Source: Rhodanobacter sp. (GTDB taxonomy: Bacteria; Pseudomonadota; Gammaproteobacteria; Xanthomonadales; Rhodanobacteraceae). Taken from it: a DNA stretch of 64,000 nt. The translations under genes and the position numbers were made by a program. Shown in pieces: positions 34,977 to 39,480 of this stretch (position 1 is its first letter; each line of letters begins with the position of its first letter). The DNA is taken from contig JANJTA010000007.1 of NCBI GenBank assembly GCA_024711345.1, positions 1-64,000 on the forward strand, given 5' to 3'. The notes under the pieces were generated by a model. That model had not been told where the DNA came from and did no database searches. It saw only the letters and a program-made list of their open reading frames with translations.

Positions 34977-37679
34977 TCAGCGCAGGATCGCGGCCGGGTC
35001 CTGCTTCGCCTTCAGCGCGCTGCACAGCTGGATCGACTCGCTGGTCTGCGCCAGGCCGCGGCTGATGCCGGCGGCGTCCTTCTCGCGGGTCTTGAAGAAC
35101 GCCTGCAGGCGGTCGTACTCCGCGGGCGAGCAGCCACCGGCCGCCGCCAGCGACGGCAGCCGGCCGCCGGAGAAGCTGCCGGTGCGAGCGAGGATCTGTG
35201 CGTAGTGCGCAGTGAACCACGACCACATCGCATCGCGCTGCGCCTGGGTGTCGCGCACACCGCGCAGCAGCATGCCCATCTCGCCGACCTTCACCGGCTT
35301 GGTCAGCGCGAAGTCGCGTACCTGCTCGGCCAGCGCCGGATCCTCCACGCTGGCCAGGCCGCCGAGAATGCCATTGCGCAAGGCCGGGTCGCTGGTCTTG
35401 GGCAATTCGGCGATCAAGGCATCCACCGCGCTCTTGCCGTGCTGCTGCACCGCCACGCCCAGCGCGTCGCCGAGCAGGTCGGGATCGGCCGCGGCCAGGT
35501 CGAGGCGGCCGTCCGCCTTCGGCTTGAGCGCCGCCTCGCCCTGCTTGAGCAGCGCCGCGCGCACTTGCGGCAGCTTGAAGTCGAACGCCAGCGCGCTGGC
35601 CAGGCTGCTGCGCAGCAGCGCGTCATCCTCCGACTCGCCGGCCTTGCGCTGGTAGCCGAGCTGCTCCAGCCGCGGCAGATAGGCGGCCTTGGCCCAGGCG
35701 GCCAGGCGCGCGCGCTGGGCGTCGGTGACGGCGATGCGCCGGTACAGGCCGCTGGCCGCGTCCAGTGGCGCCACCGCCACTTCGCGGATCTTCGAGCCGG
35801 TCAGCGGCTGCAGCGCGGCCAGCACTTGACCGGCGTCGAGGTCGCCGCGGCGGAAGCTGGCGTTGATCGCGTCGGCATAGGCCAGCTGCTCGGCGTCGCT
35901 GAGCTTGCCGACCTGCTTGACCAGGCGGTCGAGTCCGGCCTGGTCGAGGCTGAAGCGGTAGTAGCCGCTGGCGTTCGCGTTCGGCATCACCCAGGTCGGC
36001 GTGCTGGCGCCGGGCAACTCCATCGAGCCGGTGGCCTGGTCGAGCATTTCGCAGGCGACCTTGCTGGACGGTGCTCCATTCTTGCCGTTGGCGGCTGTGC
36101 CGTAGCGCACGCACACCGGCACGCCCCAGATGCGCTGCGGGTCGCCGTGGCTGCCGAGCGGCAGGTAGCGGCTCTGGCTCAGCTCGAGCACGGTCTTGCC
36201 GTCCTTCTGCTCAAGCTTCGTCGCCACGTACGGCACGCCGGACTGGTCGAGGAAACTCTTGAATGCATGCTTGAACGCGTCGCCCTTGTCGGCTGCGGTG
36301 GCGATCGCGCCGACCAGGTCGTCGGCGGTGGCGTTGCCGAACTTCTGCTGCTGGATATAGGCGCGCATGCCCTTCTGGAACGTCGGCTCGCCCACGTAGC
36401 TCTCGAACATGCCGATGACGCTGGCGCCCTTCTGGTAGGTGATGCCGTCGAACGCGGTCATGATGTCGCCGTTGCCGGTGATCGGCTGGCGGATGCTGCG
36501 CGCGCTCATCAGGCTGTCGTTGCTCATCGCGCCCTGCGCGCCGCGCACGCGGTCGAGGTCGGCGCGGTACTCCGGATGCACCTGCATGGTGACCTTCTGC
36601 TGCATCCAGGTGGCGAACGCCTCGTTGAGCCAGATGTCGTTCCACCACTCGGTGGTCACCGTGTCGCCGGTCCACTGGTGCGCCAGTTCATGCGCGTTGA
36701 CGTTGAACGAGCCGCGCACGTTGCGCGCCGGCGAATCCTTGTCGAGCAGCAGCAGCCAGTCGCGGAAGGTGACCAGGCCGGGGTTCTCCATCGCGCCGGC
36801 CTCGAAGTCCGGCGCCGCCAGCAGGTCGAGCTTGCCGAACGGGTAGCCGAAGCCGTAGTAGTTCTCCAGCGCGTGGATGATGCTCGGCGTCTCGCTCAGC
36901 ACGTGCTGCATGCGGTGCCCTTCGCCCTTGGCGGCGATGCCGCGCAGCTTGAGCGGCTCGCTGCGGTAGGCATCGGGCGAGATGTCCGGGCCGTCGACGA
37001 TGTCCCACGGGCCGACCGCGAACGCGACCAGGTAGGTCGGCAGCGGCTGCGTCTGCGCAAAGGTCACCGTCTTCCAGCCCTTGCCGGCCGGCGCCTGTTT
37101 CACCTGCTCGGTATTCGCCACCACGTTTTCGTGCTCGGGCACGGTGATGGAGATGTCGAACGGGGTCTTGAAGCCGGGCTCGTCGAAACCGGGGAAGGCG
37201 AAGCGCGCGCTGATCGGCTCCATCTGCGTCATCGCGTACGGCTGGCCCTTGGCGGTGACCTTGTACAGGCCCTGCAGCTGCTGGTTGAGCGGCGCGCTGT
37301 ACTCGAATTTCAAGGTCAGCTGCTGCGGTTTCAGCGTGCGGCCGAAATCCACCCGCGCCACACCGGCCTTCGGATCCACCGCGACGTACTTGCCCGCGTG
37401 CACCTTGCCGGCGGCATCGGTGACGGTCACCTTCGACACTTTCAGCTCGGCGCCGTCCAGCCACAGGTGGTCGGAGGCCTGGGTCAGCTTCAGCTTGATC
37501 GTGGTGGTGCCGGAGAAATCGGCCTGCGCCGGATCGACCTTGAACGCCAGCTGGTACGACTGCGGCACCGCCCAGCCGGGCAGCCGGCCCTGCGGCGCCT
37601 GGTCGGCACTGGCGGCGAACGCGGTCCCGCAACAGGCGGCCAGCGCGGTGAACAGGAGAGGACGGGCAAAACGGCGCAT
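34977..37679 (-). CDS. pepN: M1 family aminopeptidase (exported)
   Basis: Signal peptide MRRFARPLLFTALAACCGTAFA; GAMENPGLVTFRD, HELAHQWTGDTVT, WLNEAFATWM. Confidence 0.93.
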   Translation of the reverse strand: MRRFARPLLFTALAACCGTAFAASADQAPQGRLPGWAVPQSYQLAFKVDPAQADFSGTTTIKLKLTQASDHLWLDGAELKVSKVTVTDAAGKVHAGKYVAVDPKAGVARVDFGRTLKPQQLTLKFEYSAPLNQQLQGLYKVTAKGQPYAMTQMEPISARFAFPGFDEPGFKTPFDISITVPEHENVVANTEQVKQAPAGKGWKTVTFAQTQPLPTYLVAFAVGPWDIVDGPDISPDAYRSEPLKLRGIAAKGEGHRMQHVLSETPSIIHALENYYGFGYPFGKLDLLAAPDFEAGAMENPGLVTFRDWLLLLDKDSPARNVRGSFNVNAHELAHQWTGDTVTTEWWNDIWLNEAFATWMQQKVTMQVHPEYRADLDRVRGAQGAMSNDSLMSARSIRQPITGNGDIMTAFDGITYQKGASVIGMFESYVGEPTFQKGMRAYIQQQKFGNATADDLVGAIATAADKGDAFKHAFKSFLDQSGVPYVATKLEQKDGKTVLELSQSRYLPLGSHGDPQRIWGVPVCVRYGTAANGKNGAPSSKVACEMLDQATGSMELPGASTPTWVMPNANASGYYRFSLDQAGLDRLVKQVGKLSDAEQLAYADAINASFRRGDLDAGQVLAALQPLTGSKIREVAVAPLDAASGLYRRIAVTDAQRARLAAWAKAAYLPRLEQLGYQRKAGESEDDALLRSSLASALAFDFKLPQVRAALLKQGEAALKPKADGRLDLAAADPDLLGDALGVAVQQHGKSAVDALIAELPKTSDPALRNGILGGLASVEDPALAEQVRDFALTKPVKVGEMGMLLRGVRDTQAQRDAMWSWFTAHYAQILARTGSFSGGRLPSLAAAGGCSPAEYDRLQAFFKTREKDAAGISRGLAQTSESIQLCSALKAKQDPAAILR

Positions 37680-37782
37680 GAGGGTCTTCTCTAGGTTGGC
37701 AAGGGAAGACCCCACGCTAGGGCGGCCATGACTATCGACCCAGTGCCAGAAGGCATGGCGGCTACCGACGGAGTCACTGCAC

Positions 37783-37820
37783 AAAAAAAAACCGGCGGCA
37801 GGGCAAGCCTTGTCGCCGGT
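37783..37820 (-). terminator. Rho-independent terminator in the oxyR-pepN divergent intergenic region
   Basis: Minus strand ACCGGCGACAAGGCTTGCCCTGCCGCCGGTTTTTTTTT. Confidence 0.92.
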
Positions 37821-37889
37821 CGGGGAAAACCCGCGCGCCTGCGGGGGAGAGCTGGAGGGGACTCCGACGCGCGGGGTGTTGCAGAACGT
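37783..37889 (-). ncRNA. Candidate OxyR-controlled small RNA (OxyS-like position, about 107 nt)
   Basis: Predicted promoter plus OxyR-like operator upstream; C-rich loop closed by CCCGCGCG/CGCGCGGG; ends in a GC hairpin and T9. Confidence 0.6.
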
Positions 37890-37895
37890 GCGCAC

Positions 37896-37925
37896 AGCAT
37901 AGGGCGGGCACTTGCATCGCTCCAA
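37896..37925 (-). promoter_or_regulatory. Candidate sigma70 promoter TTGGAG-N18-TATGCT
   Basis: Minus strand, -35 abuts the OxyR-like operator; predicted TSS about 37889. Confidence 0.6.
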
Positions 37926-37961
37926 TTGATTGTTACCATCCATGCCATAGCGTACGTCTAT
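37925..37961. promoter_or_regulatory. OxyR-like operator (four half-sites)
   Basis: Plus strand ATTG-N7-CCAT-N7-ATAG-N7-CTAT: 14/16 matches to ATAG-N7-CTAT-N7-ATAG-N7-CTAT, exact spacing. Confidence 0.82.
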
Positions 37962-37978: not shown

Positions 37979-38932
37979 ATGAACCTGCGCGATCTGCAAT
38001 ACCTGGTGGCCCTGGCCGAGCACCGGCATTTCGGCCGTGCCGCCGAAGCCTGCTTCGTCAGCCAGCCCACCCTGTCCACCCAGATCAAGAAGCTGGAGGA
38101 CGAACTGGGCGTGCCGCTGGTCGAACGCACGCCGCGCAAGGTGCTGCTGACCGAGGTCGGCCGCGACATCGCCACGCGGGCGCGCGACGTGCTCAACGAG
38201 ATCGAGCAGATCCGCGGCGTGGCCCGCCGCACGCTGGACCCGGAATCCGGCACGGTGCGGCTGGGCATCTTCCCCACGCTGGGCCCGTACCTGCTGCCGC
38301 ACGCGCTGCCGCTGGTGCGCGCGGCGTTTCCGCGGCTGGAACTGCTGCTGGTCGAGGAGAAGACCGAGGTGGTGCTGCGCATGTTGCGCGAGGGCAAGCT
38401 GGATGCCGGCATCCTCGCGCTGCCGCTGCACGAGGACAGCCTGCACAGCGAGTTCCTGTTCGAGGAACCGTTCCTGCTGGCGGTGTCGGACGCACACCCG
38501 CTGGCGCAGCACCGGGGCCAGCTGAAACTGGGCGAGCTGTCCAGCCAGAACCTGCTGCTGCTGGAAGACGGCCACTGCCTGCGCGATCAGGCGCTGGAGG
38601 TCTGCCATCTGAGCGGCGCCGGCGAGCACAGCGGCTTTCGCGCCACCAGCCTGGAGACGCTGCGGCAGATGGTGGCGGCGAACGTGGGCATCACCCTGCT
38701 GCCGGTCACCGCGGTGAAGCCGCCGGTGGCGCCGCTGGAGAACCTGCACCTGATCGAGTTCCGCGGCCACCCGCCGAGCCGGCGCATCGCCATGGTCTGG
38801 CGCAAGAGCTCGGCCATGGACGGTTTTCTGCGGCGGCTGGCGGACGTGTTCCGGCAACTGCCGGCGGACCTGCTCGACGCGCACACCGCGGCCACGCCGG
38901 CACCGACAGCGCGCAAGGCGGCGCGCCGATAG
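37979..38932 (+). CDS. oxyR: Hydrogen-peroxide-inducible genes activator OxyR
   Basis: MNLRDLQYLVALAEHRHFGRAAEACFVSQPTLSTQIKKLEDELGVPLVERTPRKVLLTEVG; Cys region LEDGHCLRDQALEVC. Confidence 0.96.
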   Translation: MNLRDLQYLVALAEHRHFGRAAEACFVSQPTLSTQIKKLEDELGVPLVERTPRKVLLTEVGRDIATRARDVLNEIEQIRGVARRTLDPESGTVRLGIFPTLGPYLLPHALPLVRAAFPRLELLLVEEKTEVVLRMLREGKLDAGILALPLHEDSLHSEFLFEEPFLLAVSDAHPLAQHRGQLKLGELSSQNLLLLEDGHCLRDQALEVCHLSGAGEHSGFRATSLETLRQMVAANVGITLLPVTAVKPPVAPLENLHLIEFRGHPPSRRIAMVWRKSSAMDGFLRRLADVFRQLPADLLDAHTAATPAPTARKAARR

Positions 38933-38965
38933 CCGCCGGCTATCCACGCGATCCAGACAATCAAT
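38929..38965. promoter_or_regulatory. OxyR-like operator upstream of the rubrerythrin operon
   Basis: Plus strand ATAG-N7-CTAT-N7-ATCC-N7-CAAT: 13/16 matches, exact spacing. Confidence 0.72.
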
Positions 38966-39060: not shown

Positions 39061-39480
39061 ATGAGCAACTTGAAAGGATCGCGCACCGAGCAGAACCTGA
39101 AAGACGCCTTCGCCGGCGAGTCGATGGCCAACCGCCGCTACCTGTATTTCGCCGCCAAGGCCGACGTCGAGGGCTACAACGACGTTTCCGCGGTGTTCCG
39201 TTCCACCGCCGAAGGCGAGACCGGCCACGCCCATGGCCATCTGGAATACCTCGAAGCGGTGGGCGACCCGGCCACCGGCCTGCCGTTCGGCGGCACCCAG
39301 CTGAATCTCAAGAGCGCCATTGCCGGCGAGACCCACGAGTACACCGACATGTACCCGGGCATGGCCAAAGCCGCGCGCGAGGAAGGCTTCGAGGAGATCG
39401 CCGACTGGTTCGAAACGCTGGCCAAGGCCGAGCGCTCGCACGCGAACCGCTTCGCCAAGGCGCTGGGCGACATGGCCTGA
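39061..39480 (+). CDS. Rubrerythrin family protein
   Basis: [59 protein letters not shown] ferritin-like di-iron motifs. Confidence 0.95.

Follow-up and report, generated by a model that had tools for sequence, protein, structure and literature searches.

Does the region between oxyR and pepN in a Rhodanobacter genome encode a counterpart of OxyS, and if so, where did it come from? In E. coli and Salmonella, OxyS (RF00035) is transcribed divergently from oxyR, from a promoter whose −35 element is abutted by four OxyR half-sites, and ends after about 109 nt at an intrinsic terminator. Its synthesis is induced by peroxide through OxyR, and it acts by Hfq-dependent pairing with mRNAs, for instance through kissing loops with fhlA. 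To our knowledge, OxyS is treated as an enterobacterial speciality without a clear origin. A first-pass annotation of the 64,000-nucleotide stretch of DNA analysed here (the window) placed a candidate small RNA (sRNA) in the equivalent position. We consider it likely that this region encodes a stand-alone sRNA of about 107 nt, driven by OxyR, divergent from oxyR, with its own terminator and a C-rich, anti-Shine-Dalgarno-like loop, and derived from the 3′UTR of ahpC. The candidate is better supported than that annotation claimed, and its origin is the more interesting point: an OxyS-like gene assembled from what stood at either end of an ahpC transcription unit that has since been lost. No report of an sRNA linked to OxyR in Rhodanobacteraceae turned up in a literature search mostly outside subscription journals, so that the RNA is probably, though not certainly, new.

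Operator and promoter between oxyR and pepN

The start of oxyR, at 37979, and that of pepN, at 37679, are separated by a gap of 299 bp. The flanking genes are:

37979 to 38932, plus strand: oxyR (NCBIfam NF008361 OxyR, 3e-95, 319 bits, slightly below the cut-off of 329; named relatives agree)
34977 to 37679, minus strand: pepN-like M1 aminopeptidase gene (NCBIfam TIGR02412, 5.9e-85, under its cut-off)

Both redox cysteines can be read in the sequence of the window OxyR (GHCLRDQALEVC), and the closest named relative within the genus Rhodanobacter is R. thiooxydans LCS2, whose OxyR is 97% identical. A possible in-frame extension of the pepN N-terminus to 37943 was rejected as chance, because in-frame stops are present upstream in 15 of 16 relatives.

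Read on the minus strand from oxyR towards pepN, the region contains an operator, a promoter, a predicted RNA with two strong hairpins and a run of nine T; the minus-strand sequence quoted by the first-pass annotation was found as stated. The regulatory part comprises:

37925 to 37961, minus strand: predicted four-half-site OxyR operator (14 of 16 positions)
37896 to 37925, minus strand: RNA promoter TTGGAG-N18-TATGCT (from sequence and conservation in relatives)

A scan with the pattern ATAG-N7-CTAT-N7-ATAG-N7-CTAT confirmed the proposed array, with 2 mismatches, at 37925–37961, while shuffled sequences give an expectation of 0.01 matches per window at up to 3 mismatches. The operator core, GATGGTAACAATCAATT, is nearly invariant among the relatives that keep the RNA. 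The promoter said to adjoin it is indeed present, with a −35 element at 37925–37920, an 18-nt spacer and a −10 element at 37901–37896, and it is homologous to the ahpC promoter of relatives (TTTGAA-N18-TATCTT). A simple consensus scan of the window listed neither this promoter nor the terminator of the RNA, since the −35 element is weak and the terminator bulged; the evidence that both are real is thus comparative. A weak −35 fits, as for an activator-dependent promoter.

A second OxyR-type array of four half-sites (13 of 16 positions; 38929–38965, plus strand) begins in the last few nucleotides of oxyR and precedes a rubrerythrin gene (39061–39480). It is kept at about −119 to −138 in all 19 relatives checked (13 to 14 of 16 positions), mostly followed by a TAGGCT-like −10 element, and this conservation points to rubrerythrin as a likely OxyR target.

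Structure of the predicted RNA

A start predicted near 37889 and an end in the A9/T9 run at 37783–37791 would give an RNA of 107 nt with the following parts:

37783 to 37889, minus strand: predicted sRNA of about 107 nt (covariance models R1/R2)
37830 to 37875, minus strand: hairpin 1, a GC-rich stem with a C-rich loop and an inner GGAG/CUCC hairpin (from folding)
37843 to 37860, minus strand: C-rich loop CCCCUCCAGCUCUCCCCC, anti-Shine-Dalgarno-like (from conservation of CCCUCC/CCCC)
37783 to 37821, minus strand: intrinsic terminator, a long GC-rich hairpin (37790–37821) followed by T9 (37783–37791) (from folding)

The R1/R2 models match the window's own genome once, at 90.9 bits. Folding of the whole RNA gives −43.5 kcal/mol (z −2.8), and hairpin 1 alone reaches a z of −4.0, with no shuffle equalling its fold. 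The 8-bp closing stem described earlier had to be redrawn: an outer stem of about 10 bp encloses the inner GGAG/CUCC hairpin, which partly masks the C-rich loop. The loop itself held up, as CCCUCC is found in 46 of 51 sequences and CCCC in all 51. The T9 terminator was likewise recovered by folding, as a strong hairpin plus T9, and its stem (helix 2) has compensatory changes in 9 of 12 pairs.

Comparative evidence establishes this structure at the sequence level. In an alignment of 24 sequences, 12 of 23 pairs have two-sided changes that keep the pairing, which none of 500 shuffles reach. With 51 sequences drawn from the family the count rises to 18 of 23, in 135 cells where shuffles average 28, and slid registers all fall far short; since this larger alignment had been fitted to the covariance model, the 24-sequence one is the cleaner test. 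Model matches outside Rhodanobacteraceae or far from oxyR (L157, L158, L160–L167) were set aside as chance, because they are weak and have no oxyR or ahpC context.

Some stand-alone versions differ in size. That of the Dyella ginsengisoli group (L071, L072, L078, L084) is longer, and its fold comprises several hairpins whose loops are C-rich. Three independent versions (L096, L056, L104) seem, when read by eye, to have an extra 5′ stem between the promoter and hairpin 1, bearing C-rich loop sequence.

The ahpC–ahpD operon and the retention of the RNA

The distribution of the element among relatives indicates its source, a point that the first-pass annotation missed. Among 45 Rhodanobacter genomes, 15 have both ahpC and ahpD and 30, the window's among them, have neither; the RNA element was found, always in single copy, in 12 of the former and 24 of the latter. 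The same promoter stands in front of ahpC in about one third of Rhodanobacter, and most of these genomes carry the same hairpin-terminator as well, placed after ahpC and before ahpD and pepN. This promoter also drives ahpC in Luteibacter, some Dyella and basal genera. Beyond Rhodanobacter, the order ahpC–element–ahpD recurs in Luteibacter, in some Dyella and in several further genera of the family; in other Dyella-like genomes the stand-alone form immediately follows the divergent oxyR promoter. The RNA is dispensable, as 6 of the 30 Rhodanobacter genomes without ahpCD and most of the sampled ahpC-less Dyella loci have no model match.

The ahpC-linked form is, most simply, ancestral, because oxyR divergent from ahpC–ahpD is the arrangement in the basal genera Oleiagrimonas, Dokdonella, Rudaea and Pseudolysobacter and in Luteibacter as outgroup; the Dokdonella locus has a recognisable C-rich hairpin. 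In addition, the leader of the stand-alone RNA resembles the stretch that follows the ahpC stop codon (window ACGTTCTGCAACACCCCGCG, relative AACGCTTTGCTTGCAATACCCCGCG), as would be expected from a deletion running from just past the promoter to just past ahpC. These comparisons establish, as far as homology can be read from sequence, that the window RNA descends from the element in the ahpC 3′UTR, between ahpC and ahpD. The old ahpC promoter would have become that of the RNA and the old 3′UTR hairpin and terminator its body, when the two coding sequences flanking the element, ahpC and ahpD, were deleted.

On a tree of OxyR and PepN, the state with RNA and without ahpC takes about seven changes, all on supported branches; as the tree covers these two proteins only, exchange of the locus between species by recombination might make this number of origins too high. 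Together with the ancestral state, it suggests that ahpCD was lost repeatedly while the RNA was kept. We are moderately inclined to conclude that a regulatory RNA at the 3′ end of an OxyR-induced ahpC mRNA outlived its parent gene repeatedly, in five to seven independent lineages of Rhodanobacter and Dyella, with the ahpC and ahpD frames lost and the OxyR promoter and RNA retained each time, convergently creating OxyS-like sRNA genes. The locus is a likely counterpart of OxyS in a gammaproteobacterial family far removed from the enterobacteria, and living relatives still display the steps of its history: an element of an mRNA 3′UTR, the loss of the coding sequence, and a stand-alone OxyR-driven sRNA. 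Such a natural series for testing the birth of an sRNA gene is rare, and it also allows one to ask whether the 3′ end of ahpC already regulates where ahpC persists.

The element is clearly a leftover of the ahpC–ahpD operon, and it has completely gone in many Dyella and some Rhodanobacter, so one may imagine a neutral remnant, that is, a promoter and 3′UTR left by the deletion and slowly decaying. This is highly improbable, given how the parts are conserved. Within the genus, leader and spacer vary, whereas the genomes keep the operator, a −10 element matching TANNNT, the terminator, and hairpin 1 together with its C-rich loop. Across 15 stand-alone Rhodanobacter species, hairpin 1 has a mean pairwise identity of 0.91, the operator of 0.82 and the terminator of 0.76; the third codon positions of oxyR reach 0.76 and the post-terminator spacer 0.44 (0.41 when shuffled). 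In this clade the hairpin thus exceeds the third positions of oxyR in conservation, and the spacer beside it hardly differs from shuffled sequence; the two-sided pair changes and a −10 element kept at fixed spacing in 20 of 20 stand-alone relatives also argue against decay. The neutral remnant has been largely refuted by these figures, and the comparison demonstrates, on sequence grounds, that the stand-alone RNA is maintained by selection. Conservation of promoter, operator and terminator in relatives was a test on which the first-pass annotation had staked its reading, and the reading passed, all three being conserved.

Promoter and RNA are, moreover, lost together. In a comparison of 81 loci (80 named ones and the window's own), the operator core (at least 14 of 17 positions) and a correctly spaced −10 element are intact in all 20 loci with RNA and without ahpC. 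Where both RNA and ahpC are missing, the core is intact in none of 33 loci, a figure that includes L106, with too short an upstream sequence to judge, and L097, with an ahpC match, and the −10 element is present in 3. The core consensus was built from RNA-bearing genomes and favours them, a bias of which the −10 test is free. Phylogenetically independent pairs agree in 5 of 5 cases, where p = 0.0625 is the floor for five pairs.

These losses bear on the idea that the RNA is inert. The operator lies inside the oxyR promoter region and a strong terminator is placed ahead of pepN, so an operator kept for oxyR autoregulation could still fire the divergent promoter, with the terminator shielding pepN as an insulator. 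However, relatives lose the promoter-proximal half-sites and the −10 element yet keep oxyR, and the divergent promoter is therefore not obligatory. Hairpin 1 with its C-rich loop (91%) is also better conserved than the terminator (76%), and an insulator needs no such loop. We regard a dead end of this kind as unlikely.

The oxyR-side half-sites often remain in loci that have lost both ahpC and RNA. In six of these (L070, L080, L085, L095, L101, L109) they are kept and the promoter-side ones lost, which suggests what oxyR autoregulation alone needs.

The RNA is on the same strand as pepN and 103 nt upstream of its start codon, and transcription from the OxyR promoter might enter pepN and be attenuated by the hairpins. 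A leader of this type is extremely improbable, because pepN has a conserved promoter of its own:

37714 to 37755, minus strand: pepN promoter block (ATGCCTTCTGGCACTGGGTC ... TAGCGT; 83% identity, 15 species)

This block sits 3′ of the RNA terminator and is kept in genomes without the RNA too. Furthermore, the spacer, anywhere from 11 to 65 nt long, shows no sequence conservation, and in ahpCD-bearing genomes ahpD intervenes and puts the element about 0.6 kb away from pepN. The block contains a near-perfect palindrome, RTGCCTTMTGGCAC (37736–37755), conserved over Rhodanobacter, Dyella and Luteibacter, which is possibly the site of some regulator.

Related RNAs and mode of action

The predicted stand-alone, OxyR-driven sRNA resembles OxyS in being divergent from oxyR, in the tetrameric OxyR site that, by sequence, abuts its promoter, in its length (about 107 nt predicted versus about 109 nt) and in its intrinsic terminator. 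It differs in its C-rich loop, its origin in the ahpC 3′UTR and the bacterial family. The RF00035 covariance model gave no match in the window's genome at E ≤ 10 and one above the cut-off among 14 control genomes. The view that the RNA is a positional analogue of OxyS, not a homologue, is borne out. An Rfam search of the region and four relatives found nothing near a gathering score; the Betaproteobacteria toxic sRNA (RF02278), for instance, reached 15.7 bits, where its gathering score is 50.

C/U-rich anti-Shine-Dalgarno segments in stem-loops are a feature of the CcsR/cuckoo RNAs of alphaproteobacteria. They are also present in the stem-loop RNAs NmsRA/NmsRB of Neisseria (PMC5362039). The window RNA shares such a segment with both, but its genomic setting and regulators are others. 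The nearest experimental model for the loop mechanism would be sX13 of Xanthomonas, of the same taxonomic order, an RNA of about 115 nt which, through apical C-rich loops, represses mRNAs bearing G-rich motifs close to the start codon (PMC3771888). An apical C-rich loop is common to both RNAs. By contrast, sX13 adjoins polA and has three C-rich loops, and OxyR is nowhere mentioned in its description (PMC3771888), whereas the window RNA has one main C-rich hairpin and its single genomic match is at oxyR/pepN. The RNA of the Dyella ginsengisoli group, with its several C-rich loops, resembles the three-loop layout.

As for origin, sRNAs can be made from a 3′UTR through RNase E cleavage or an internal promoter. 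Such RNAs have been reviewed, among them SorX of Rhodobacter, which responds to oxidative stress (PMC9438474). In ahpC-bearing relatives the element would, by its position, similarly share the 3′ end and terminator of the ahpC mRNA, while the window has lost the parental coding sequence and its RNA has a predicted start of its own. The nearest precedent found is MalH/MicX, one locus whose RNA is processed in one genus and transcribed from its own promoter in another.

With regard to function, we infer transcription, OxyR induction and base-pairing mode as follows. Peroxide would oxidise OxyR, which would activate the divergent promoter, and the RNA would accumulate. Its C-rich loop (CCCUCC / CUCUCCCCC) would pair with G-rich Shine-Dalgarno regions and repress translation, a mode modelled on sX13 and other sRNAs with C-rich loops.

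A search of the genome for near-perfect complementarity to the loop gave 10 sites, including the locus itself (control, 3 + 3), none of them convincingly at a start codon, and in a duplex ranking over the open reading frames of the window the starts of oxyR and rubrerythrin pair poorly. The RNA could instead bind Hfq or another protein, or act as a sponge, without Shine-Dalgarno pairing. These searches turned up no target, an hfq gene was found in the window's genome, and one GGAG in the inner stem is invariant. A CsrA-type sponge, however, usually has several GGA loops, whereas the window RNA has a single GGA, which is paired, and its conserved feature is the C-rich loop; we consider such a role quite improbable. 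Three of the near-complementary sites (L169, L172 and L177, on contigs 7, 8 and 39 of the same genome) are intergenic and alike, with the form CTCCCCTGC...GCAGGGGGAGG..GGAGGGG, which suggests a REP-like repeat family in this genome.
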